The translations under genes and the position numbers were made by a program. From positions 1 to 41,653 of the forward strand of contig SXIK01000204.1 of the NCBI GenBank assembly GCA_005772855.1: a stretch of DNA of 41,653 bases, given 5' to 3'. Position 1 is the stretch's first letter; each line of letters opens with the position of its first letter. The stretch is from Planctomycetia bacterium. GTDB taxonomy: Bacteria > Planctomycetota > UBA8108 > SXIK01. The notes under the pieces are model-generated. The model ran no database searches and had not been told where the DNA came from. It saw only the letters and a program-made list of their open reading frames with translations. Positions 7,015 to 29,214 of this stretch are shown one piece after another.

Positions 7015-8250
7015 TCACCTCACGGGGATGTCCCGCAGGAGCGGGGACTTCTCCCGCTCGTAGTAGAGCTTGCCGTTGATATAGGCCCGCTCTACCAGGC
7101 TTCGAAAGTCGAGCGGGTGGCGAGTCAGGATCAAGATGTCGGCGTCCTTGCCCTTCTCGAGGCTGCCAACCCGGTCGGCAATCCCGAGGACCCGTGCAGG
7201 TTCAATGGTGATAGCCTGGATCGCAAGCTCCTCGTCGAGGCCACCGCGCACGGCGAAGGCAGCCTCCATGGCAAGAGCCGTGAGGTCCCGGCCGGCGAGA
7301 CCGTCAACCGAAACACCCCGGCGGAGCGGCAAGATGGACACCTGGACCCCAAGCGCTGCGAACGCCGCCGGAATACGAATCGGGATGAGCCCTTGCTCAT
7401 CCTGGATGGGTCGCGTGAGGTCGAAGTCGAAGTCCGGGCCTCGCGCCTTGAGCAGCACAGGGATCCGGCGGGCAGCCAAGTCGCGGGCGAGACGAACCGC
7501 TTGGTACGGGCGAGAGAGGATCAAGTCAAAGGGATACTTTTCGTGGATCGCCAGGATATCCAGCACCTGCTCCACGGTCTGCGCAGCAACAACGGTAGGC
7601 CTCTGATTCTCGAGAATTGTGACGTACAACGTCAGCTCGGGTGGCGCCCGGGGCGGCTGCAACTTCTTCGTCTCGGCCTCGCGGACGGCCTTGAGGTGCT
7701 CGGAGGCTTTGCGGAAACTCTCCCGCAGGCGGGCGAGGTTCAACTCCACCTGCCGCGTCGGAATTGCGAAATAGTTGAGCCCGGGCTCTCGAATCAGCAT
7801 CGAGTCCAGGTCACCCTGGGTAAGCTTGATCACCGCCGAATTGGCTCCGGAGATCGCCCCAGTATCTTCTCCGAAGATGCCGAAGAAGGGCACGTCAATA
7901 ACGTTGGCCGTGGTGATGCCGTTGGCCAGTGCAACTCGAAGCCCCAACTGGTAGGGGTCGAGGCTATCGGCAATGTTTCCGTCGGTGGCTGCCACACCGA
8001 CTCCGGAAGCCTCGATGGCCACCCATCCCGGCATCACGTACTTACCCGTCGCGTCAAGGACAGTGGATCCGGCGGGCACCGGAAGCTCACTACCCACCGC
8101 CTCGATCCTGGAGCCGCGGATGATCACCGTGCCCCTGGAGAGCATGGGGCCCACGGCCGTGATCACGGTACCACCGACGATCGCAGTCGCGGGTCGTTGC
8201 GGAAGGACCGGCACTTGCGCGAGGTAAAGCACGAGCAAGAGGCTTGTCAC
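7015..8250 (-). CDS. Exported amidohydrolase-like protein, metal ligands lost (operon gene 7)
   Basis: Last gene of the seven-gene operon, 411 residues, GTG start whose GTGA overlaps the upstream stop, with GGGGAGG eight bases before it. A short signal peptide covers about residues 1-22. The fold signatures of the imidazolonepropionase-like amidohydrolases are present: an N-terminal beta-sandwich (GGTVITAVG), PGWV at the first barrel strand, and a C-terminal ARVLGIADRVGSLEKGKDAD. The usual His-x-His is replaced by Glu80-x-Ser82. The strand-5 His is Ala (VVAAQTVEQ), the strand-6 His is lost in ILSRPYQA, and no Asp is found at strand 8. I infer a non-catalytic or radically altered member. A different metal-free activity cannot be excluded. 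Confidence 0.85.
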   Translation of the reverse strand: MTSLLLVLYLAQVPVLPQRPATAIVGGTVITAVGPMLSRGTVIIRGSRIEAVGSELPVPAGSTVLDATGKYVMPGWVAIEASGVGVAATDGNIADSLDPYQLGLRVALANGITTANVIDVPFFGIFGEDTGAISGANSAVIKLTQGDLDSMLIREPGLNYFAIPTRQVELNLARLRESFRKASEHLKAVREAETKKLQPPRAPPELTLYVTILENQRPTVVAAQTVEQVLDILAIHEKYPFDLILSRPYQAVRLARDLAARRIPVLLKARGPDFDFDLTRPIQDEQGLIPIRIPAAFAALGVQVSILPLRRGVSVDGLAGRDLTALAMEAAFAVRGGLDEELAIQAITIEPARVLGIADRVGSLEKGKDADILILTRHPLDFRSLVERAYINGKLYYEREKSPLLRDIPVR

Positions 8251-9641
8251 TTCAAGGCCTCCCCCGAGAGGCTGGAGGTTGTTGGGTCGTCCGAGAACAC
8301 TTCCTCGCCGTCGATGAAGGCTCTCAGGAGGCGCGCGGATCCACTCAAGGGCTCACCTCGATAAACGCAAAACGACGCGAAGGCTCCCTTCTCGAGCGTC
8401 CCCAGCTTGCCTTCAAGCCCTAGCATCCTGGCGGGCACTGTCGTCACCGAGGCGAGCGTATCGAACTGCGGGACGCCGCATTTCACCATCTCGGCGAGAA
8501 AAAAAAACATCCTCTCGTGCCCTTCCAGCGTGTCCGCGAGCGGCACAAACGCAACGGGGATCGCATTTTCGTGGAAGAGCCTGGCCGAGGCCACGAGCAC
8601 GGATGACTCTCGAAAGGCTTCAACCCGGGGCTCAATGACCACGCCCCTCAGTTGATCCTTCCGCCGGACCAGCTTCTCCACGCAATCGGCCGGCTGCGGA
8701 GCCGTGACGAGCACGAAGGACGGCTTGACGCTCAAGGCATCGAAAAAGCGGAAGAAGTGGTCCAGAGAGGCCGGCGTGCGCACGCGAATGAAGAGCGGAA
8801 GCTCTCCCTTCAAGGCCAGGACCAGCGGGTCCGGCGCCCTGGGCGGTGCCGCGGGCGCTTGTGGTGGCGGCTGAGCCGCAGGCGGAGCGGGAGCTTTCTT
8901 TTCCTCGCCCTTCTTCTCCTCGGGCTTTGACTCGCTCTTCTTCTCCTCCGACTTCACCTCGGCCGACTTTTTCTCTTCAGCCTTTTTCTCCTCGGCCTTC
9001 TTGACGGCCTCCTTCTCCTTTGTGATCGTATCGGCGGCCTTCTTCAGCTCGCCTTCGGCCACATCACGCCAGCGCTTGCCGGCCTCGTAACCAAGGAGCA
9101 GGTACGCGCCTTCCTTGACCACCAGCTCACCCCGAGGCTTGTCCCCGGTCTTGCCCCGACCTGGCCTCAAAACAGCCGCTTGCCCCGCGAGAAACGCGCC
9201 CGCGTCGGGAAGCCAGCCAAAGGCGGCATAGCCCGATCGGCCAAGGCGCCGCCACACGGCTTCCTCGGGCATGACGGAACCTGCCGCGGAGAGCCGACGA
9301 GCATCTCGCGGTTCGCGTGCAAGCACCGAGGGCACTGGACCTGCGTCGCCCCGATAACTTCGCTCGGAGATCGTGCTGAGGGGATTGACAAGGCCCGGCA
9401 AGATCAATACCTCGCCCAGATCAAGGACCTCCACTCCCGCAGGCGGCTTCTCGCCGGAGGAAAGAACTCCCTCCACCAGCTCTGCCCTCACGAGCAAGTG
9501 GCCATCTTCGACCGTGTTTCCCGGACCGACCACAATCCGCGAGGCACGATAGGCCTTGAGGGCCGGTGCGTCAGCGGCAAGGACAATCCCTCGGCCGGCA
9601 ATGGCCGCAAGGAGCATGGAGAGGAGCTTAAAGCATCTCAT
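8247..9641 (-). CDS. Exported amidohydrolase-like protein with Lys/Glu-rich insert, ligands lost (operon gene 6)
   Basis: 464 residues, ATG immediately after the previous stop, GGAGG six bases upstream. Signal peptide about residues 1-23. The barrel entry reads PGLVNPLST (82-90), with Leu and Thr where the His-x-His pair should be; the later His and Asp ligands are also absent. Residues 199-249 are almost entirely Lys, Glu, Ser and Ala, followed by a Pro/Ala tract (250-271). They occupy the place where relatives carry a short helix before the LxGxLP strand. The C-terminal ARMLGLEGKLGTLEKGA keeps the family signature but KGAFAS replaces the usual GKDAD. This is the most divergent member of the array. 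I expect a structural or scaffold role, but no function is demonstrated. Confidence 0.82.
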   Translation of the reverse strand: MRCFKLLSMLLAAIAGRGIVLAADAPALKAYRASRIVVGPGNTVEDGHLLVRAELVEGVLSSGEKPPAGVEVLDLGEVLILPGLVNPLSTISERSYRGDAGPVPSVLAREPRDARRLSAAGSVMPEEAVWRRLGRSGYAAFGWLPDAGAFLAGQAAVLRPGRGKTGDKPRGELVVKEGAYLLLGYEAGKRWRDVAEGELKKAADTITKEKEAVKKAEEKKAEEKKSAEVKSEEKKSESKPEEKKGEEKKAPAPPAAQPPPQAPAAPPRAPDPLVLALKGELPLFIRVRTPASLDHFFRFFDALSVKPSFVLVTAPQPADCVEKLVRRKDQLRGVVIEPRVEAFRESSVLVASARLFHENAIPVAFVPLADTLEGHERMFFFLAEMVKCGVPQFDTLASVTTVPARMLGLEGKLGTLEKGAFASFCVYRGEPLSGSARLLRAFIDGEEVFSDDPTTSSLSGEALK

Positions 9642-10904
9642 TCAAAACCTCCGCGGCTCCTTGCGCGTATCATAGACAATGCGCCCATTCACGATCGTGG
9701 CGACAACGTGGTTCCGCACATCGAAGGGGTTGCCTGTCCAGAGGACCACATCGGCGTCCTTTCCTTCCTCGAGGCTGCCCACGCGATTTTCGATCCCGAC
9801 GGCCCTGGCGCCGCTGATGGTGATTCCGCGGAGCGCGACCTCCTCGTCGAGGCCGAATCGGATCGCCATTGCGGCCTGGTAACTCAGCTCCTCCTCGGGC
9901 ACCACGCCCGCGTCGGTGTTGATGCCGACATCCCTGACTCCGCCGTCGTACCAGCGCTTGGCGGTACCCACGACCGTGCCTCGCTCCGAGTCAAACCAGA
10001 ACTGACGCGGGCCATTCATGACCATGATCCCGCGTTCAGCCACCTCGGGCGCCAGCTCGGAGCCGTCGAACTCGCCATGGTCGATGACAACCCAAAGTTT
10101 CATCTCGTCCTTCAGGATCCGGATCGTGGACAAAATCAGGTGATATCCCTGCGTGTGCACCACCACCGGGTACTCGCGATGGAAGAGGCCTCGGAAGTAC
10201 TCGAGGCGAGGATTCCTTGCCGGTGGATCCTTCGTCCTGCCGGCCTCGAACTCGTCCCAGGCGGAAGTGTACCGACGCCCCTCCTCCAGAGCGTTACGAA
10301 TGAGCCAGTTCATTCCCATGCGATCACGTCCCAGATCTCCCCCCCGACGCTCGGGGTTCCCGCCCTGCGCAATCTTGAGGGCACCGGGGAAACGGATCAG
10401 CGCCTCCTCGACGGTATCGCCTCCTGTCTTCATCAAGGCGCCGAAGCCACTCATGTTGGTACCGCTTCCCGAGATGAAAAGGATCGTCGTCACCCCGCCA
10501 GCCTGCGCTCGCTGGAGCCGGAGGTTGTTGGGGATGATGTTGTCGAGCACTCGAAAGCCAGGGTTGACAGGGTAGACCATGTCGTTGATGTCGCTCCCGC
10601 CGACGTGGGAATGCAGGTCAACAAAGCCCGGCAAGACCCAGAGGCCGCTGGCGTCGATGACCTCGTAGCCCGTGGGGCGATAATCGGCCGGGGGGTCGAT
10701 CAGGACCTTGTCGATCTTTCCACCCGAGATAAGCAGGGCGGCACCGGCGTGAACACCCCTTGTGACGGTCACGACCTTTCCGCCGAGGATTGCGATTCGG
10801 GGCGCATGCGCCAATGCCCGCGACGCGGAGGCAAGCTGCAGCACCGCCAGGACCGTCAAGAACCCTGCTGTCCCGGATGCGAGTTGTACTCCTGCGCTTC
10901 TCAT
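9642..10904 (-). CDS. Exported imidazolonepropionase-like amidohydrolase with complete metal site (operon gene 5)
   Basis: 420 residues; start overlaps the upstream stop as ATGA. Signal peptide about 1-33. It is the only one of nine domains in the operon with a full amidohydrolase ligand set: His98 and His100 in FVDLHSHVGG, His250 in VVVHTQGYH, His276 in VIDHGEFDG and Asp331 in NTDAG. The C-terminal GARAVGIENRVGSLEEGKDADVV completes the family signature. Known relatives (COG1228) hydrolyse cyclic amides, imidazolones or dipeptides such as Xaa-Pro and Xaa-Arg; which applies here cannot be read from sequence. Given its position among ligand-poor paralogs, it is likely the catalytic member of an exported complex or pathway. 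That last point is inference. Confidence 0.9.
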   Translation of the reverse strand: MRSAGVQLASGTAGFLTVLAVLQLASASRALAHAPRIAILGGKVVTVTRGVHAGAALLISGGKIDKVLIDPPADYRPTGYEVIDASGLWVLPGFVDLHSHVGGSDINDMVYPVNPGFRVLDNIIPNNLRLQRAQAGGVTTILFISGSGTNMSGFGALMKTGGDTVEEALIRFPGALKIAQGGNPERRGGDLGRDRMGMNWLIRNALEEGRRYTSAWDEFEAGRTKDPPARNPRLEYFRGLFHREYPVVVHTQGYHLILSTIRILKDEMKLWVVIDHGEFDGSELAPEVAERGIMVMNGPRQFWFDSERGTVVGTAKRWYDGGVRDVGINTDAGVVPEEELSYQAAMAIRFGLDEEVALRGITISGARAVGIENRVGSLEEGKDADVVLWTGNPFDVRNHVVATIVNGRIVYDTRKEPRRF

Positions 10905-13339
10905 GGCTTCAAGTCACCTTCCACCATCACGCGCAGGACTCGCGTGCCAGGTGCGAAAGGCTCCCCGGAGAGAAAGACCAGATCGCCATCCTTGCCCTCC
11001 TCGATCGAGCCCACCCGATCCTCGACCCCCAGGATCTCGGCAGCCCGAATCGTCAACGCCGCCAGCGCACCCTCGGCGTCCCAACCCTCGCTGACAGCGA
11101 ACGCGATCTGGGGCACCAGCTCCCCGGCACCGGTGGCGACGCCGGAGCGGAAGGAAAAGCGCAGTCCCGAGGCTGCGATCTGCCTGGGTACGTTGACTTT
11201 CGTCGGGCCTTCCGCCGCCACGAAGGGAATGGAGAGGATCGCCTGCACGCCAAGGCGCCGCAGGTCCTCGGCAACGCGATCGACGCGGCCAGGGCCGTGA
11301 ACGACGACCCTCATACCAAAGTCCGTCACGAGGGTTCTCGCAAGAACGATGCCGCTTTCAATGGGGGACGCGTACACGAAGGCCGTGGCCTTCTTCTCCA
11401 GAAGGGCACGGAATGGCTCGAGCTCTTCTCGCTTCTCCGGGGCGTCCCCCTGAGGCTTCAACTCGTACGCCTTCCAGCGTTCGTGGTACTCCTTGGCCTT
11501 CTTGAGCTCCTGTGCCTGCACATCCGTGCGAATCACCAGGCCAGCGAACGACCGTATCGTTGCCTCCTCTCGCGAGCCACCCTTGAGCTTCCAAACCGTG
11601 ACTTGCCCCGCGATGGGAACCGAGGGATCGGGCAGGATTGCAACGGTCGTGATTCCTCTCCGCAAGGGTTCCATCAGACTGGGGTCCCCGGGCTCGATGG
11701 CATCCGCCAGCCGGAAGGTGCTGCGGCCCCCACCGCCAGCCGCCCCCGAGAGCGCAGCCGCCTCGGCCACAAGAACCTCCGCGCGGGCTCCGACACTCGT
11801 TCCCGAGTCGATGAAGCCAGGCACGATGACCTCGTTCGAGGCATCGACCGCAAGCGCTCTGGGGGAAAGCTGCGCAGAGAAGGGCCCCGGACCCACGTAG
11901 CGAATTTTCTTCCTCTCGAGGACGACGATGCCGGCTGGCGTCACGTCTCCCTTCCCGTTGTGCACCGAGCGGGAACGGACAATCGTGGCGTCAGGTCCCA
12001 GGCCGCCGGGCCCCTCGTGGTGGACCAGCTCGCCGGACACGAACACGGCCTGCACCTTGCCCTCAACCGTGAAAAGATCTCCACCGAGCACAACAAGATC
12101 AGCGTCCTTCCCCGGCTCAATCGAACCGACGCGATCGTTCACGCCCAGCAGGCGCGCAGCCGATGAAGTCACGCACTGAAGAGCCACCAGAGGGTCAAGC
12201 CCGGCTCGCACAGCGCTCTCGGCCTGAAGAAGCAGCTGGCCGGTCTCCGCGTCCGTCGGGCTGTGAATGACGACGCTCACACCCGCCTTCACGAGCTTCA
12301 CAAGAAGCTCCTCGCGGTAGCGGCCCTCGCTCGTCTCCGAGGTCAAATCTCCGCTGGCTATCACGCCGGGCTGAAAGCCTCCCGCGAATACGCAGGGCAC
12401 GCCAGCCTCAACCAGCTCCGGCGCCACGAGGTCGGCCTCGCGTCCGCCCTCGAGCACCATTCGAAGCTTCTGCTCCTTCGCCACTCGCAGCATCTGCAGG
12501 ATGTCGCGGGCTCGATTGGCACGCACCCGCAGGTAATCGACTCCGTTCAGGACCAACACGGCCGGAGCGGCATCCAACACCGCTGGCTCGGGGAACGAAG
12601 CATCCGCCCCCCCACCCCAGGCCTTCAGGAGCTGCCTTGCGTCGTCAAAAAGGGTCCTCAGGGCCAGGAACTCTCCCGGTCGCGACTGCGGAAGCTGAAG
12701 GGGCAAGACGTCGAATGGGTTGTCTGGCGAGGCCGAGATTGGCGGATCGTAGATGGAGGGCGGACGCTTCGGTAGCTCCCCGAGGGTCACCTGCAAGCCC
12801 GTGGCACGCAGGAGCACCCTTGCGAGCGGGTTCGCGGCAAGACCCGCCGTCTTCACCACGCATCCCCGCCCCGAGACAAGACGTGTCGGCTTGCCCGCCG
12901 AGTGCGAGACCCCCGGCCCGACATGAACCGTTGTCACCCCACCCTGGAGAATCGCCCGCCGGTCGGCGAAAAAGTCCCAGCCGTCCACGGCCTGAATCTC
13001 GGGTGACACGCTCTTGTCGACATCGCTCGTTTCGCCAGTCAAGGATGTCTCTGCATCGATGAGGCCGGGGATCACGACGTGGCCGGGCAGCGCGTAAACA
13101 GGCGTACCCCGGGGCGCCTCGACCTGGACCCCCACTGCGACGATCTTGCCCCCCTGAACGAGCACCGCGCCGCGCTCGAGCACCGCGCCCGTACCCGTGT
13201 AAATCTTGCCGGCGCGAAGCAGGAAGTCGGGGCCCAACGAGTCGGGTTCGGTGGCACCCGCAACTGCCTGAAGCCCGACCAACGCAATCGCGGCGACGAC
13301 CCGGGGCAACTGGTTCTGAATCTCTACAACCTGGCGCAC
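10901..13339 (-). CDS. Exported double-domain amidohydrolase-like protein, ligands mostly lost (operon gene 4)
   Basis: 812 residues, GTG start directly after the upstream stop, preceded by AGGAGG. Signal peptide about residues 11-29. Two complete amidohydrolase-like domains are fused. In the first (about 35-440) the metal motif is LIDAETS (Glu97, Ser99), strand 5 reads VRANRARDI and strand 6 LEGGREAD, so no His ligand remains. In the second (about 455-812) the motif is FIDSGTS and strand 5 is VYASPIES, but strand 6 keeps a His in VVVHGPGR. Both domains end with the GS[IL]EEGKDGDLV or EPGKDADLV signature. The fused halves suggest an obligate intramolecular dimer. Loss of ligands is seen directly; lack of hydrolase activity is inferred. 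Confidence 0.87.
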   Translation of the reverse strand: MRQVVEIQNQLPRVVAAIALVGLQAVAGATEPDSLGPDFLLRAGKIYTGTGAVLERGAVLVQGGKIVAVGVQVEAPRGTPVYALPGHVVIPGLIDAETSLTGETSDVDKSVSPEIQAVDGWDFFADRRAILQGGVTTVHVGPGVSHSAGKPTRLVSGRGCVVKTAGLAANPLARVLLRATGLQVTLGELPKRPPSIYDPPISASPDNPFDVLPLQLPQSRPGEFLALRTLFDDARQLLKAWGGGADASFPEPAVLDAAPAVLVLNGVDYLRVRANRARDILQMLRVAKEQKLRMVLEGGREADLVAPELVEAGVPCVFAGGFQPGVIASGDLTSETSEGRYREELLVKLVKAGVSVVIHSPTDAETGQLLLQAESAVRAGLDPLVALQCVTSSAARLLGVNDRVGSIEPGKDADLVVLGGDLFTVEGKVQAVFVSGELVHHEGPGGLGPDATIVRSRSVHNGKGDVTPAGIVVLERKKIRYVGPGPFSAQLSPRALAVDASNEVIVPGFIDSGTSVGARAEVLVAEAAALSGAAGGGGRSTFRLADAIEPGDPSLMEPLRRGITTVAILPDPSVPIAGQVTVWKLKGGSREEATIRSFAGLVIRTDVQAQELKKAKEYHERWKAYELKPQGDAPEKREELEPFRALLEKKATAFVYASPIESGIVLARTLVTDFGMRVVVHGPGRVDRVAEDLRRLGVQAILSIPFVAAEGPTKVNVPRQIAASGLRFSFRSGVATGAGELVPQIAFAVSEGWDAEGALAALTIRAAEILGVEDRVGSIEEGKDGDLVFLSGEPFAPGTRVLRVMVEGDLKP

Positions 13340-14701
13340 CTAGAACCTCCTCTCGGGCTCCCTTTGAAGGGCCTCGAGGTCAGGGTCCCTGTCACGTCGA
13401 TAAACTTCCTTGCCCTCGATCAGGACCACCTCGACCCAGCTGCGCGCGTCGAGCGGATCGCCGCTGAAGATGGAGAGGTTCGCATCCTTGCCCGGCTCGA
13501 TCGTGCCCATGCGATGGTCGAGGCCGAGGATCGTCGCCGGCGTCAAGGTAACGGCCTTCAGGGCCTCGGCCCTCGGGATGCCGAAACGAACCAGCTGCGC
13601 GGCTTGATACCACAGGTGGAGCTCGCCCCTGCGGGAGAGGCGTGGTCCATACTTGCCGGGATCGGGCACGGGTTGCACCGCGAAGCGAATACCGGCGTCG
13701 AAGAGAATTCGAGGCGTCACGAATCGACGCTCTTCCAGCGTCCTCAGGTCCGTCTCCCACGCCACCAATTCGCCGTCGAGGACGACGGGCCCAAGGTCCG
13801 ATCGACCCTTGAGCACGCTGGCGAGCCTGTAGGCGTCAGGACCCAGGACAAGCGTCGCCTTCAATCGGTTCGAGTCGATCAACTCGAAGGCCTTGAAGAC
13901 GTCGGAGGCGCCCGGGCAGTGGATGAAACAGCCCAGATGGCCCCTGACAACGTCGATGAGCGGCCGCAGCTCGGTCGACAGCTTGTCGGTATTCAGCTTG
14001 TCCCAGTCGATCTCCTGCCACTGGGCCCGCGACTCGACCACAGAGGCAAGGCTGAGCTCACCGACGGGCCTTCCACTCAGGAGCGTGCTGATGCTCTCGG
14101 ACGAGATCTCGAGGGCCTGGATGTAGAGGTCGAAGAATGTCTTGCGGAGCGCAGCGATTGTCTGCATCCGCGTCTCCCCGATGGATGCCCGCAGCGAGAT
14201 CTTCATTGCCGATGGCGACTTGACCACCATGGCCTCAACTGTCCGCCCAGTCGTTCTCACGACGGCGCCCTGGCCGCCAATGCGCGTGGCGTTCGCTGGA
14301 ATCACATGAGCGATCGTCACACCATCGCGCAACGAGTCCTTGATGGCCTGCGAGGACGGATCGATGCCGTCGAGCACGCTGATATAGGCGGCATTGGGAA
14401 CATTCTCGTTGGGAACGCGCAGACCGATGGTCGTGTGGACCGAGATCAACCCGGGCATGGCGGTCGCACGTGGAAGCCGAATCACCTTCGCGTTCCAGGG
14501 AACCTCGATGCCCTTGCCGACGGACTTGATCCGACCCTTCTCGATGAGGATGGTTGCGCCCTCGATCTCGTCGCCCGACACGGTGATCACCCGGGCGACC
14601 TGGACGGCCAGCGTCTCCTCATACTGAGACTCCGGTGGCGCTTCCTCTGCCGAGACCGCTGCGCCGAGGAGAAGAGTCAGGCTCAAGAGTCTTCGCGTCA
14701 A
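13340..14701 (-). CDS. Exported amidohydrolase-like protein with partial metal site (operon gene 3)
   Basis: 453 residues, TTG start overlapping the upstream stop (TTGA), GGAG about ten bases upstream. Signal peptide about residues 1-18. The first ligand His is kept (His89 in LISVHTT) but the second is Thr91. A strand-5 His is kept (His261 in CFIHCPGASDV), while the strand-6 EHG position reads LGPD and the strand-8 Asp is missing (FAVQPVPDPG). The C-terminus has ILGLDHRMGTIEPGKDANLSIF, close to the family signature. A single-metal or substrate-binding role remains possible because two of five ligands are present. The gene abuts the next gene with no spacer. Confidence 0.85.
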   Translation of the reverse strand: MTRRLLSLTLLLGAAVSAEEAPPESQYEETLAVQVARVITVSGDEIEGATILIEKGRIKSVGKGIEVPWNAKVIRLPRATAMPGLISVHTTIGLRVPNENVPNAAYISVLDGIDPSSQAIKDSLRDGVTIAHVIPANATRIGGQGAVVRTTGRTVEAMVVKSPSAMKISLRASIGETRMQTIAALRKTFFDLYIQALEISSESISTLLSGRPVGELSLASVVESRAQWQEIDWDKLNTDKLSTELRPLIDVVRGHLGCFIHCPGASDVFKAFELIDSNRLKATLVLGPDAYRLASVLKGRSDLGPVVLDGELVAWETDLRTLEERRFVTPRILFDAGIRFAVQPVPDPGKYGPRLSRRGELHLWYQAAQLVRFGIPRAEALKAVTLTPATILGLDHRMGTIEPGKDANLSIFSGDPLDARSWVEVVLIEGKEVYRRDRDPDLEALQREPERRF

Positions 14702-23290: not shown

Positions 23291-23372
23291 AGGTGATGGG
23301 GAACAGCCCACGCGCCTCATGCAAGCCACGAGCGACCCCGCAGGCGAGTCCCCCCGGCACTCCCCATCACCT
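23291..23372. repeat. Perfect 12-bp inverted repeat at the 3' end of the CotH-type gene
   Basis: AGGTGATGGGGA at 23291-23302 pairs perfectly with TCCCCATCACCT at 23361-23372, with 58 bases between. The right arm covers the stop codon of the 1093-residue protein (23367-23369). Inside and beside it, AGCCCACGCGCC occurs twice (23272-23283 and 23305-23316). It could fold in RNA as a long-loop terminator-like structure, but no T-run follows on the minus strand. Confidence 0.5.
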
Positions 23373-26300
23373 GCCCTCGATGCCATGAGCATCCTCGTCT
23401 TCATCATCCTCGTCGGGCTCGGGACGCAGCTCGGGCGGAGCCGTTTCCGGGGGCGCCAGGGGCGAGGTGACCTCGTCGGGCGGCCGAGCACCGCCGAGCG
23501 CTGCGGACTGCCGCTTCAGATAGTCCCCTGGAATCTTCGGAATGTTCCGCGAGCCGGGAGTCGGGTCTTTCCAGATCCGGAATTGTTTTGTTCCGTCGGG
23601 GTTCGCGCCCCAGGACGCGCCAGTTTGTACACTGCGAAATGTTATGGTGTCGATGGGCAGGTTGCCCTCCTCCATTCGACCGTAAAGCCCCAGGAACTCG
23701 CCCGAGTTCGAGAGCTTGAACCCGGCATGGTTACCTCGATTAGCGCCGTCCGCCCAGAAGACGGCGAATCCTCGGGGAGGCACGACATTGCCTCCTGGAA
23801 TCCGCCAACGCGTCGGATTGCGGCTCGAGTCACTCAGAAAACAACCCTCGAGCTCGAAGGGTGAATCACTCGTGTTGAAGACCTCGATGAACTCGCCCGG
23901 AGCCCCGGCTGCCCGGCCAGGACGCGGCAGCACCTCGTTCAGCCGCACGGGTGCTTCCACCGGCAGGATGAACGTCAACCGGGGCGCCGCTAGTGGAAAG
24001 ACCCGCTCGACACCCTCCGCGCTCCTCGCGAGAAAGTAATAGGCTGTGCGCTTCCGATTCGGGGCCGCAGCGAGGTGAATCACGAACTGAAAGCCCTTGT
24101 CGTCCCAGGCCAGGTCCACACCTTGAAACTCCGCGGCGCCCTCCTCGCGATACTGGAGAGCCACCTTGGCGGGTCCCTGGTCGCCGCGAAGGTCATCCCA
24201 CCGCAGTTTGAGCCAAATCTTGAGATCACCGTTCTTCTCCCGGGTGACCCCCTGCCGGTACTCATGGGGTGGAGGCCTGAGCGCAGCACCCAGGTTCGGC
24301 ATCGCCGGCGTCGGGTTCGAGAGAAAGCCCCAGGCTCCCTCTGCGTCGCGGCCATACGCAAAGCCCTCGGTCTGGCGCCCCAGGAAGATCGAATCCAACA
24401 GCTCGGACGGGGACGTCGGCGTTGCCTGCTGCCAGAGTGCGAGGAACCCTCCGTCGGCGCCGAGGGCAGGGAAGACTGAACCGGAATCGCGCCGCCACAG
24501 GAAGCGCTGTCCAGGTTCAAGCGCTCCGCCCTCCGGCGCAGGCAAGGGGAAACGGATGGCCCGACGATGAAACTCGGTCGTGATGTAGCAGCCAGCCAGT
24601 CCACTCGACTCGCTCGAGAAGTTCTGAACCTCAATCCAGGGCTCCCCACCCTTCGGACGCAGGAGAACCTCATTCAGGAGTAACTTCGGCGGTCTTCGAA
24701 CCTTGAGACCTCTGTCGAGCTCCCGCAGGGCCGCGACTCGCGCGCGATGGTCTGCCTTGATTCGCCGGGGGCCCGACAGCAACGCCTCACCACCGTCTCG
24801 AGGCCAACGGTTGGGATCGCAAAGAGCCGCCTCCCGGACCTTCGCAAATCCCGCATCGACAAGCTCATCAAACCTTTCTGGTGCAAGCGCGCCTGAAATC
24901 ATCGTCGAGAGGCGCAGGGAAAGCTGCTCGCGACGGCGAGGATCCATGAGCAAACGGGTCTCCAGCACCGACGGTTCGAGGAGGTTGGAGACTTTTCCCG
25001 AGAGCGTGCGGCTCTCAAGCAGGTCCATGGACGCCGCAACGCCCAGCGGCGCCGAGCGAGTCTCGAAGTCGCTAATACCCAGAGAGTCGTTCGGAGACTT
25101 TTCCTCAAACAGCTCCCAGCGCTGATTGCGCGAGTCCTGGAGGAGGAAGCGGCCCAGAAGAGGGGCCCCGCGGATGAGGCTCAGGGCGGTGCGATCGAGC
25201 CATCGCTCAAGGTAGAGTCGATCCTCAAAAAATCGTTGTATCTCGCCCTCGTCAAGCCGATTGAGCTCCTGAACAAGCTCTGTGAGAGCCATGAGGTTGC
25301 CTTCTTCGCCACGCTGCTCACCGTGGGGCACCCAGTCCCACTCAAAGCGGTCCCCGCGGGTCTCACGGGCGAGTAACCCCACGCGGTCAAGGCGAAAACG
25401 AGATCGGAAACGTCGGCCCAGCGGCTCGATATCGAAGTAAACTCCCTGGTAGACTCCGTTGAGTGAGAGCGCCACGGGCTCGACGGCCGGTGATGCGAGA
25501 CCCACGGCGAGCGCGGCTGTGCTCGACAAGCTCTCGCGGAGCAACGTGGGGTCGCCGGCCTCCGCGCTGAGGAAAAGGCTCTTGCGACGGCGAATGCTTC
25601 GGTTCCGTTCCACTTGAGGCACGAGGCGAAAGCTCTTCTTTCTCTGCCACATGGGAGTGGACTTCTCGAGGCTCAGGAGAACGTGGCGGACATCTCCCTG
25701 CCAGTGGAGCTCGGCGGGAACCTCGATCGGGCCATTCGACTGCACGCCCAAGCTGCGCAGGCTCTCCTCGGACACCCGGACATCCATTACCTGGAGGCCC
25801 AGATCCTCTACGCGCTTCGCCTTCCCGTTCTGAACCCCGGAATCGACGCTTCCTGACCCGTCGGCGCGGTGAGCTCGCACCCGGTAGAAATGCTCCGTCC
25901 CTACCTCGATTGTGGTATCAAGAAAACGACGGATATGAACGGGGTTCGTCGAGATCTTCACGAACAGACCCGCTGGCGACTGTGAGCGCAGGACCTCGTA
26001 GCTTCCCACCACACTTCCCGCCGGGACGGTCCACTCGAGCAGGACCGCTCCCGGCCCACTGAGGACGGTCAATGCGGGGATGGGAGGAGACGCAGCCAGG
26101 GAATCCGTGGCCCTCAGAACGCGGATTCGCGAAATTCGAGGTGCCCTCTCGGACGTTCGCGACTCAAAGCGAAGGTCGAGCCAGCCATCGAGCACCCCGA
26201 CCCTGGTCGCCAGTGTGACCCATGCAAAGTCGCCACCTTCACGGGCGATGTCAAAGCCCTTGAAGGCCGCATCCTCCACAAACACATCGAAGACCCGGAG

Positions 26301-26648
26301 CCCGCTCGCCGCGACGTCCGTTTCGAGGAAGGTCAACTCAACCACATACTCGCCCGGTGGAAGCCGAAAGACGTACTTCTCCATCGCCTCCCGCCATGCC
26401 AGCAGCCAGTCCACATCGCCGCCCAACGCCATCGCCCCGATCCGGCGGCCCGGCGCGCCGCCGACATGGCCAAACCCACGTTCGAGGCTGAAGGGGACGT
26501 CCGGCAGAGTCAGCTCGCCGCTCAAGCCTGGCTCACCGACCCCTTGCACGCCCGCGCGCAGGAGGAAGGGGAACTTGTCGAGGACGGGCTCTGCCGTCAT
26601 CGAAGCGGCGAGCATGAGGAGGGCCGCGGCGGCAGCATATCCAGTCAT
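23367..26648 (-). CDS. Exported malectin-FN3-CotH-lamin-tail protein
   Basis: 1093 residues with an export signal at about 1-19. A malectin-like carbohydrate-binding domain covers about 25-180 (FRLPPGEYVVELTF, LRVFDVFVE). An FN3 domain covers about 190-270. A CotH-kinase-like domain covers about 285-530, with the family hallmark LNGVYQGVYFDIE at 396-408. Two lamin-tail domains follow (about 653-790 and 900-1030; each begins LNEVLxRP and has WIEVQN or FIEVFN). The end is Pro-rich with a run of Asp/Glu (1078-1086). CotH proteins phosphorylate secreted partners, but the usual WDxDxSxG active-site stretch reads WELFEEKSPNDSLG here, so activity is doubtful. Probably envelope-attached or secreted. 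No Shine-Dalgarno is seen; a TATAAT lies nine bases before the ATG. Confidence 0.85.
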   Translation of the reverse strand: MTGYAAAAALLMLAASMTAEPVLDKFPFLLRAGVQGVGEPGLSGELTLPDVPFSLERGFGHVGGAPGRRIGAMALGGDVDWLLAWREAMEKYVFRLPPGEYVVELTFLETDVAASGLRVFDVFVEDAAFKGFDIAREGGDFAWVTLATRVGVLDGWLDLRFESRTSERAPRISRIRVLRATDSLAASPPIPALTVLSGPGAVLLEWTVPAGSVVGSYEVLRSQSPAGLFVKISTNPVHIRRFLDTTIEVGTEHFYRVRAHRADGSGSVDSGVQNGKAKRVEDLGLQVMDVRVSEESLRSLGVQSNGPIEVPAELHWQGDVRHVLLSLEKSTPMWQRKKSFRLVPQVERNRSIRRRKSLFLSAEAGDPTLLRESLSSTAALAVGLASPAVEPVALSLNGVYQGVYFDIEPLGRRFRSRFRLDRVGLLARETRGDRFEWDWVPHGEQRGEEGNLMALTELVQELNRLDEGEIQRFFEDRLYLERWLDRTALSLIRGAPLLGRFLLQDSRNQRWELFEEKSPNDSLGISDFETRSAPLGVAASMDLLESRTLSGKVSNLLEPSVLETRLLMDPRRREQLSLRLSTMISGALAPERFDELVDAGFAKVREAALCDPNRWPRDGGEALLSGPRRIKADHRARVAALRELDRGLKVRRPPKLLLNEVLLRPKGGEPWIEVQNFSSESSGLAGCYITTEFHRRAIRFPLPAPEGGALEPGQRFLWRRDSGSVFPALGADGGFLALWQQATPTSPSELLDSIFLGRQTEGFAYGRDAEGAWGFLSNPTPAMPNLGAALRPPPHEYRQGVTREKNGDLKIWLKLRWDDLRGDQGPAKVALQYREEGAAEFQGVDLAWDDKGFQFVIHLAAAPNRKRTAYYFLARSAEGVERVFPLAAPRLTFILPVEAPVRLNEVLPRPGRAAGAPGEFIEVFNTSDSPFELEGCFLSDSSRNPTRWRIPGGNVVPPRGFAVFWADGANRGNHAGFKLSNSGEFLGLYGRMEEGNLPIDTITFRSVQTGASWGANPDGTKQFRIWKDPTPGSRNIPKIPGDYLKRQSAALGGARPPDEVTSPLAPPETAPPELRPEPDEDDEDEDAHGIEGR
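23447..23485 (+). repeat. 39-bp direct repeat, copy 2
   Basis: Matches positions 21856-21894 at 37 of 39 bases, both changes being A to G. It lies inside the C-terminal coding region of the CotH-type protein, where the minus strand reads RPPDEVTSPLAPPE. One palindrome arm base changes from a standard pair to a G-U-type pair, so the stem is kept. Confidence 0.75.
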
Positions 26649-26662: not shown

Positions 26663-26728
26663 TCCAGGCAGCTCCACAGTTCGGTCATGACCCTTGACCT
26701 TGAATTTTGCATGGATGCCCGGAGGACC

Positions 26729-27826
26729 ATGCCCGATACTGCAAACTTGAACCCATTGGACCCATTCCCCATGGATCTGAATTTGGATCTTCTCCGTAGA
26801 CTCTGCGAGACCCCCGGAGCCCCGGGCCGCGAAGAACGAGTCCGGGAGCTGGTGATCGAGAGATTGAGGCCGCTGTGCGATGAGATCTCCACCGATGTCC
26901 TCGGCAACGTGATCGGGCTCAGGCGGGCCCCCGGGCGCGGCTCAACAAAACCTCTGCGTCTCATGCTCTCGAGCCACATGGACGAGATCAGCTTTCTCGT
27001 CACACACGTTGACGAAGGCGGCTTTATTCGCTTCACGCCGCTCGGAGGGTTCGATGCCAAGACCCTCACGGCGCAGCGGGTCAATGTGCACGGGAAGCGC
27101 GACCTCCTGGGCGTGCTTGGCACAAAGCCTGTGCACGTGATGAGCGAGGAGGAGAAAAAGACAGCCCCAAAGCTCGATGATTACTTCGTGGACGTAGGCC
27201 TCCCTGCCGCGGAGGTCAAGGCACTCGTCTCGGTGGGCGATGTCATCACACGTCAGCGGGATTTGGTCGAGATCGGCAACACGCTCAACGGCAAGTCCTT
27301 TGACAACAGAATGGGCCTCTTTGTCATGCTGGAGGCGCTTGCCCGACAAGGCGCGCACGAAGTGGACGTTTACGCTGTCGCGAGCGTTCAGGAGGAGATT
27401 GGACTGCGGGGAGCAACCGTTGCGGCGCGAAATATCGAGCCGGACATCGGCATCGCCCTGGACATTACCGTGGCCAACGACGTGCCGGACGCCAAGTCGC
27501 ACGAGCACATCACTCGGTTGGGATCGGGTGTCGCGATCAAGGTCATGGATTCGAGTGTGATCTGCAACCCAAGACTGGTCGGTCACCTCAAACGGCTTGC
27601 CGAGGAGCACAACATCCGATACCAGATGGAGGTCCTGGTCAGGGGCGGCACCGACACTGCTGCCTTGCAACGCTCGGGCAGGGGCGCAGCTGTTGGCTGC
27701 ATCAGCATCCCCACCCGCTACGTACACTCGTCGATCGAAATGTGTCACAAGGACGATATCCGGGCGTCGATCCAGCTTCTCGTGGCGTTCATGGAGAGCG
27801 CGCACCGGGAAAGTTACGCGCTGTGA
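26729..27826 (+). CDS. M42-family metalloaminopeptidase (glutamyl aminopeptidase/FrvX type)
   Basis: 365 residues from the ATG at 26729, which has GGAGG just before it (short spacing). An ATG at 26687 would add 14 residues and an ATG at 26771 would remove 14. The dinuclear metal site of M42 peptidases is complete: His83 and Asp85 (SSHMDEI), Asp192 (SFDNRMG), catalytic Glu222 and Glu223 (QEEIG), Asp245 (ALDI) and His333 (YVHSS). These enzymes form large tetrahedral cytoplasmic complexes that trim peptides from the N-terminus. The stop codon overlaps the GTG of the next gene (GTGA), so the two are translationally coupled. Confidence 0.95.
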   Translation: MPDTANLNPLDPFPMDLNLDLLRRLCETPGAPGREERVRELVIERLRPLCDEISTDVLGNVIGLRRAPGRGSTKPLRLMLSSHMDEISFLVTHVDEGGFIRFTPLGGFDAKTLTAQRVNVHGKRDLLGVLGTKPVHVMSEEEKKTAPKLDDYFVDVGLPAAEVKALVSVGDVITRQRDLVEIGNTLNGKSFDNRMGLFVMLEALARQGAHEVDVYAVASVQEEIGLRGATVAARNIEPDIGIALDITVANDVPDAKSHEHITRLGSGVAIKVMDSSVICNPRLVGHLKRLAEEHNIRYQMEVLVRGGTDTAALQRSGRGAAVGCISIPTRYVHSSIEMCHKDDIRASIQLLVAFMESAHRESYAL

Positions 27827-29214
27827 CCAACGCTTCAGCCCCGGCCGTCCCCGCTACCGTCCCGCCTCCAAGGGGCCTTCGAAGTAAGATATCGCCCTTC
27901 GGGGGTTTCGCCTCCGCAGCTCTACTTTACCTGGCCATCGAGAACGACTCCTTCCAACACGTCGCCTGGTTCAGCCTCGTGCCCCTTCTCTACAGTTTAC
28001 ACCTGGCACAAGACTCGGCGCGCCAGCGATTCTTCGAGGGGCTCTCCTTCCTGGGGACCCTCGGCATCGCGTACTTTCGCGCAGATACTGCGCCGATTCT
28101 CCTGGGAATACAGTCCGGCATTTTTGCCGTCGCGGCCGGCCCCATCCTTCAAGGCCAGCGAGGGCTCGTCAAGGCGATCCGCCTGGGCCTCCTCTGGACA
28201 GGACTGGAGGTCTTTCGTGGTCCGCTTTGCCCATTTCCGGAGGCCCTGGTGCCTGGATGGCTCACTGTCGGTTCCGCCGTGCGACCCGGGAGCCCGGAAT
28301 CGCAGACGGCAAACGTGGTGGGGCTCTACGGCCTCAGCTTCGCAGTGAGCCTGTCTTCTTGCTTTTTCTTCGGCGTACTCGTGGAGCAACGCCTCTGGCG
28401 CCAGATCGTGTGCTTCGCGGCCGGCCTCGCAGTACCCCTGGTATGCCATGGATACGGCGTCTCAGCCGCGAACGAGGCCGCGGTCCCGGCGAGACGCGCG
28501 GACATTGTCCTCGTCACGGCGCACTCGAGTGACGACGGGACGCTCGCCGCGCTCACGCGCACAATTCCCGCCACGACAGGCGGTCTCATCGTGTGGCCCG
28601 CCACCTCGAGCGCAATGACCTCGAACGCGACGGGAACCGCACAGTTCGAAAACGTGGCCCGCGAGGCGACCTCGATGGCCCTTACTATCGCCCCCGTGGC
28701 GCCGGGGCAGGAGCATTATCAGGCCATTGTGGCTGACTCAACCGGCCGCATCCGGGAGACTTTCGCGCAGGACGGACAAACACCGGTCCTGGTGAAGACG
28801 CCCCACGGACTCATCGGAGTGGGCGTGGAGGACGACTTCGACTCTCCCTTACTGGCGAGGGCAGCAACCACGCTGGGCGCGCAACTACTTATCAGCATCG
28901 CCCTGGAGACCGAAGCCTGGCGTGATTGCGCCGTTCGACACCGCTCGAGCCTTGACGCCTACCGATCCATCGAGAACCATCGTTGGATCTTGAGGACAAG
29001 CCGGCGAGGCTGTGCGGTCATGAATCCCCTGGGGCACCCCACGATCGACATCCGCGGCATCGGTTGGGCGGGCGAGGCCGAGTCTGCGTGGATCGATGTG
29101 ACCACAGCTTATACTCGTTGGGGCTGGTGGGTCGAACCCATGATACTGGCTGGAGCCGGCTGGGTTCTTGTGGGCGCCCTCATCCACTGGGTCACACACC
29201 GACAAAGGGTCTGA
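27823..29214 (+). CDS. Apolipoprotein N-acyltransferase-like membrane protein without catalytic residues
   Basis: 463 residues from a GTG that overlaps the M42 stop. The first 220 residues hold about five to six hydrophobic segments, including VPGWLTVGS and VVGLYGLSFAVSLSSCFFFG, arranged as in Lnt. Residues about 235-440 resemble the Lnt nitrilase domain, and a final hydrophobic helix precedes the end. Lnt normally adds the third acyl chain to lipoproteins using a Glu-Lys-Cys triad. Here WPE is WPA (Ala260), the YxKxxLVPFGE loop is deleted, and the ICYExxF motif is VGVEDDF, with Gly334 at the Cys position when anchored on Glu336 and Phe339. The reading frame is intact, so this looks like a conserved pseudoenzyme rather than a broken gene. 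A true lnt is expected elsewhere. Confidence 0.75.
   Translation: MTNASAPAVPATVPPPRGLRSKISPFGGFASAALLYLAIENDSFQHVAWFSLVPLLYSLHLAQDSARQRFFEGLSFLGTLGIAYFRADTAPILLGIQSGIFAVAAGPILQGQRGLVKAIRLGLLWTGLEVFRGPLCPFPEALVPGWLTVGSAVRPGSPESQTANVVGLYGLSFAVSLSSCFFFGVLVEQRLWRQIVCFAAGLAVPLVCHGYGVSAANEAAVPARRADIVLVTAHSSDDGTLAALTRTIPATTGGLIVWPATSSAMTSNATGTAQFENVAREATSMALTIAPVAPGQEHYQAIVADSTGRIRETFAQDGQTPVLVKTPHGLIGVGVEDDFDSPLLARAATTLGAQLLISIALETEAWRDCAVRHRSSLDAYRSIENHRWILRTSRRGCAVMNPLGHPTIDIRGIGWAGEAESAWIDVTTAYTRWGWWVEPMILAGAGWVLVGALIHWVTHRQRV

Follow-up and report, generated by a model that had tools for sequence, protein, structure and literature searches.

What is an apolipoprotein N-acyltransferase (Lnt) kept for once its catalytic residues are gone? 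Lnt provides lipoproteins with their third fatty acid and is an essential lipoprotein-maturation enzyme, as well as a drug target, in many Gram-negative bacteria; in E. coli its catalytic triad consists of E267, K335, and C387. The question is raised by an Lnt-like gene in the stretch of planctomycete DNA analysed here (hereafter the window, 41,653 nucleotides in all). A preliminary description, made from the letters alone, had read it as an intact gene for a repurposed, non-acylating Lnt paralog that has lost the triad and is coupled to an M42 peptidase gene, perhaps as a lipoprotein- or peptide-binding membrane partner. The features discussed below are listed in Table 1.

Table 1. Positions in the window of the Lnt-like gene, its upstream neighbour, and the parts of its product.
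Feature	Position	Strand	Basis
M42 family aminopeptidase, upstream in the GTGA-overlapping pair	26687..27826	+	PF05343, 303 bits
Lnt-like gene without catalytic triad, 463 aa	27823..29214	+	GTG start at 27823, stop at 29214
GTGA start/stop overlap of the Lnt-like gene with the M42 gene	27823..27826	+	arrangement identical in G001 (sister genus)
Lnt-type membrane domain, helices within residues 27-218	27901..28476	+	LNT_N match; structure model
RPGSPESQ, lineage-specific P..PE motif, probable H5-H6 linker of Lnt	28282..28305	+	sequence alignment
Nitrilase-like domain, residues 224-424	28492..29094	+	CN_hydrolase match under cutoff; sandwich in model
Ala260 replacing the catalytic Glu (WPE to WPA)	28600..28602	+	alignment
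Glu336 replacing the catalytic Cys (VGVEDDF)	28828..28830	+	alignment
C-terminal transmembrane helix, residues 429-462	29107..29208	+	structure model

The undisturbed frame of 463 residues and its GTGA coupling to the stop of the peptidase gene were both borne out. The GC content at the three codon positions is 0.65/0.53/0.74, and both halves of the gene are similar to the neighbouring genes in this respect. When neutral substitution alone was simulated to 0.3 changes per site, about 0.1% of frames of such composition remained open; the open frame and the codon composition of the window copy thus argue against neutral decay. A frameshift or an assembly artefact was ruled out, the frame and the codon signal being intact and the homologs in agreement.

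Other parts of the window carry features of their own. On the minus strand, positions 7018-14701 hold a run of amidohydrolase genes (PF01979/PF07969) whose ends abut or overlap; four matches in this run are clear and an ORF lying between them (8250-9641) has no match at 1e-5. Positions 23367-26648 encode a protein of 1093 residues that combines a CotH kinase domain and a malectin domain with two lamin-tail stretches.

Fold and catalytic residues

The window protein matches LNT_N (Pfam) at 35.0 bits, above the cutoff of 27.1, and CN_hydrolase (PF00795) at 20.4 bits, slightly under the cutoff of 23.2. Its AlphaFold model, computed from an alignment of 15 rows (pLDDT 85.5, pTM 0.86), has the membrane domain and the nitrilase-like sandwich that define the Lnt fold. 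The top 24 Foldseek matches of this model were all Lnt structures (TM (query) 0.62-0.72), with P. aeruginosa Lnt 5n6m as the best (E 1.2e-15), and a homolog from a second family of the same order (f2), about 25% identical to the window protein and 56-89% to its own close kin, was likewise modelled as an Lnt fold. The comparison with Lnt structures that the preliminary description had proposed therefore bears out its recognition of Lnt helices followed by a nitrilase-like domain, and a fold other than Lnt was excluded by the model and the Foldseek matches.

The window protein shares with Lnt (TIGR00546, PF20154 plus PF00795) the fold, the domain order, the nitrilase core residues, and the membrane-domain core W125, E129, R132, G167, and G212. 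It differs from Lnt in having neither the triad nor the arm 3 loop, and its TIGR00546 lnt (NCBIfam) score of 43.2 bits falls far short of the curated cutoff of 132.9; the Glu-Lys-Cys active site of the nitrilase superfamily is likewise absent. The triad columns were assigned from an alignment with triad-bearing relatives, in which WPE reads WPA and the Cys motif reads VGVEDDF, just as first described, and the Lys of the triad is deleted together with the surrounding segment. The positions of Glu and Cys are 76 residues apart in the window protein; canonical Lnts of the phylum have a spacing of 116-148 residues, and the short-arm proteins introduced below one of 88-109. The stretch missing here is arm 3, a mobile loop after the catalytic Lys that serves substrate entry and product exit in Lnt (PMC10313180).

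The reported deletion of the LVPFGE loop stands as far as the Lys segment is concerned, but the closest triad-bearing relatives, with K..PVQF and a short arm, likewise do without the long LVPFGE loop, so part of the deletion is ancestral. The loss of the triad extends to the relatives, the whole triad being missing in all seven homologs that have a nitrilase part. In the f2 homologs, Gly, Ser, or Ala stands at the Glu position, the Lys is absent, and the Cys position holds Ser/Thr or Asp depending on the alignment, whereas a partial homolog (G007) has Arg and Gly at the Glu and Cys positions and no Lys. Judged from its sequence, the window protein is incapable of Lnt chemistry, which requires the Cys nucleophile and its partners.

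Relatives and a second Lnt subfamily

The genome of the window also contains an lnt with the full triad (contig C106, locus L001; 533 residues, 185 bits, WPE, K, and CYE), found in the search that the preliminary description had called for, so the gene without the triad is not the only Lnt of the cell. Across the order, an lnt above the cutoff is present in seven of ten genomes, the three without being 62-83% complete. In a side observation, the canonical lnt genes of two of these genomes, G002 and G004 (L027, L028), are only 68% identical, compared with 89% for their Lnt-like genes and 93-96% for the neighbours, possibly owing to recombination or a binning oddity.

Conservation of the Lnt-like gene was confirmed: homologs without the triad are kept in all eight genomes examined from the window's family (f1, 2/2) and from f2 (6/6), and none was found in two genomes of a third family (f3) or elsewhere in the class. 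The frames are full-length in six genomes, although the window copy is just 25-30% identical to the others. Its only close relative, in the sister genus (G001), is 35% identical and half as long, ending after 225 residues shortly before the nitrilase domain. The gene order and the GTGA overlap with M42 are preserved there, and the nitrilase half was not found on the 9.7 kb contig of G001 with a profile that scores the window copy at 287 bits. In a scan of named genomes, the window protein had no match and an f2 protein matched two records, one of them Planctomycetes bacterium UBA1662.

On either side of the Lnt-like gene in f2 lie an HNH-like gene in divergent and a metallo-hydrolase-like gene in convergent orientation, both names being assigned by eye. 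As the adjoining genes differ between the families, the context yields no function. The membrane half on its own (L022:7132-7809) is followed by an opposite-strand AbrB-like gene, an amidohydrolase-like gene, and corA, these names also being given by eye.

A profile of the triad-less proteins found nine further full-length proteins in scattered planctomycete families (L059-L063, L065-L068), which we call the short-arm group. Glu, Lys, and Cys are kept in eight of the nine, with 28-33 residues from Lys to Cys and a PVQF-like sequence after the Lys. The short-arm paralogs exceed the TIGR00546 cutoff and are accompanied by a canonical lnt in every one of their nine genomes, and no common partner was recognised by eye among their neighbours. 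The remaining protein (L065:711-2273) has the Glu and the Cys, with Gln at the Lys position, and on its sequence may be another inactive form.

In the trees, the triad-less proteins were monophyletic (support 99/98 and 100/99) and stood apart from canonical Lnts (100/99); the window protein alone and the f2 proteins alone each joined the short-arm side of the tree, with support of 97 and 94. A recent duplication of the order's own lnt was rejected on the tree, with an AU p of 0.014 for the forced grouping with that lnt. The triad-less clade thus appears best explained by descent not from the canonical lnt of the order but from a second Lnt paralog, one with a short arm. Because of the long branches, its exact attachment beside the short-arm clade is less certain than its separation from canonical lnt.

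Selection and the part retained

The Lnt-like genes of f2 are under purifying selection that is relaxed in comparison with canonical lnt and the neighbours (dN/dS 0.27-0.37 versus 0.14-0.15 and 0.10-0.16; NG86, between f2 genomes, with pairs from that family alone). In two f2 pairs, the membrane half gave a dN/dS of 0.22 and the nitrilase half 0.38 and 0.56; a third pair with few substitutions (L020/L023) showed the opposite order of the halves. Homology to Lnt, loss of the catalytic residues, and retention under selection, the last judged from the dN/dS values of f2, together mark the lineage as an Lnt-derived pseudoenzyme.

The relaxed selection, the lack of the nitrilase half in G001, and a shortening of the window copy between the helix ending at residue 84 and the helix starting at residue 90 would also suit a decaying relic, that is, an old second Lnt paralog, inactive and slowly eroding, with no present function. 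We regard this as unlikely, since drift would not keep six full-length frames open at the low identity of the window copy to the others, the dN/dS values are well under 1, and lineage-specific residues are common to both families.

Among these residues, P155, P158, and E159 are common to the window protein, the G001 homolog, and four f2 homologs, and P158 and E159 are practically missing from triad-bearing Lnts. The P..PE motif formed by these residues should correspond to the linker at the base of the lipid pocket, given its place in the alignment; in Lnt, this base is made by linker L1 (PMC10313180). The lineage keeps the fold, the membrane core, and P..PE, and G001 has naturally lost the nitrilase half; taken together, this suggests that the membrane domain is what has been retained.

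The peptidase gene was described as active-looking, and its product does match the tetrahedral aminopeptidase 1y0r in its metal and catalytic motifs. An ortholog (78% identical) was found in G001 only; the remaining M42 matches in the order, located elsewhere, reach about 37% identity at most, those in f2 being paralogs of about 36%, and no M42 gene lies beside the Lnt-like gene in f2. The pairing is therefore confined to one family (two genomes), and the coupling does not hold as a general property of the Lnt-like gene. No membrane segment was predicted in the M42 protein, which looks cytosolic from its sequence, whereas the nitrilase domain of Lnt faces the periplasm (PMC10313180, in line with the generally known topology of Lnt), which makes it unlikely that the two are direct partners. 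That the Lnt-like protein is a dedicated functional partner of the peptidase, as the GTGA overlap preserved in two genera of the window's family might suggest, is thus quite improbable.

Very improbable, too, is that the old pocket houses a relocated or novel active site and that the protein acts on lipids or lipoproteins by other chemistry: polar residues (Glu, Ser/Thr, or Asp, by row and alignment) do occupy the Cys position in most rows, and examples of pseudoenzymes whose residues have migrated are on record (PMC10211241), but the nitrilase half has no new polar triad common to the window protein and the other homologs, its invariant R381, E384, and R391 are invariant in canonical Lnt as well and hence likely structural, and G001 lacks the domain.

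Known Lnt paralogs and the proposed role

Our search of the literature on inactive Lnt families returned just a mycobacterial case and, within it, Streptomyces Lnt2, and no paper on Lnt from Planctomycetes turned up in the literature collection covered. BCG_2279c, the second Lnt homolog of M. bovis BCG, has Ser in place of the Cys and does not replace the main Lnt (PMC3850990). The window protein resembles it as a second Lnt paralog with an altered triad, but it has lost the loop and every one of the three residues, a state common to a whole lineage. Lnt2 of Streptomyces scabies has a subsidiary role and cannot replace Lnt1, yet it influences N-acylation; the S. scabies Lnts are contrasted with BCG_2279c in PMC3850990, and no triad loss is reported for Lnt2. 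The window protein is thus like Lnt2 in being a second Lnt and, on this account, unlike it in lacking the triad. It is closest, by profile score and tree, to the short-arm paralogs, which also occur beside a canonical lnt; unlike it, they keep the triad (with Gln for Lys in one of nine) and pass the TIGR00546 cutoff. Inactive Lnt paralogs altered at a single residue are therefore already known, and a whole lineage without the triad and the substrate loop is new.

Our preferred reading, to which we give a probability of about 0.6, is a non-acylating Lnt pseudoenzyme of short-arm descent, centred on the membrane domain, kept since at least the split of the two families, and presumably with a non-covalent binding role. 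The repurposed, non-acylating paralog of the preliminary description is accordingly a likely reading, given the loss of the triad, the intact frame, and the conserved homologs, though not its general coupling to M42. In the pseudoenzyme reading, Glu, Lys, and Cys would have been lost from a short-arm ancestor along with the substrate-gating loop, whereas the fold of Lnt and the greater part of the membrane-domain core would have been retained. Through the membrane domain, the protein may bind a lipoprotein, acyl chains, or some partner, for example canonical Lnt, and would then have an accessory or a sorting function that involves no covalent chemistry; the nitrilase part would be secondary and dispensable, as in G001. 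A non-covalent binding or accessory role of some kind seems most likely, and a putative role as a lipoprotein- or peptide-binding partner is possible. More tentatively, the membrane domain could be the functional part throughout a pseudoenzyme lineage, so far confined to one planctomycete order, whose members would bind lipoproteins or lipids non-covalently or else regulate canonical Lnt.

These results bring to light a second, short-arm Lnt subfamily in Planctomycetota, which current family models label plain lnt, and they indicate that an LNT_N match alone is no evidence of N-acylation. Natural Lnts without catalytic residues reveal which parts of the scaffold serve without chemistry.
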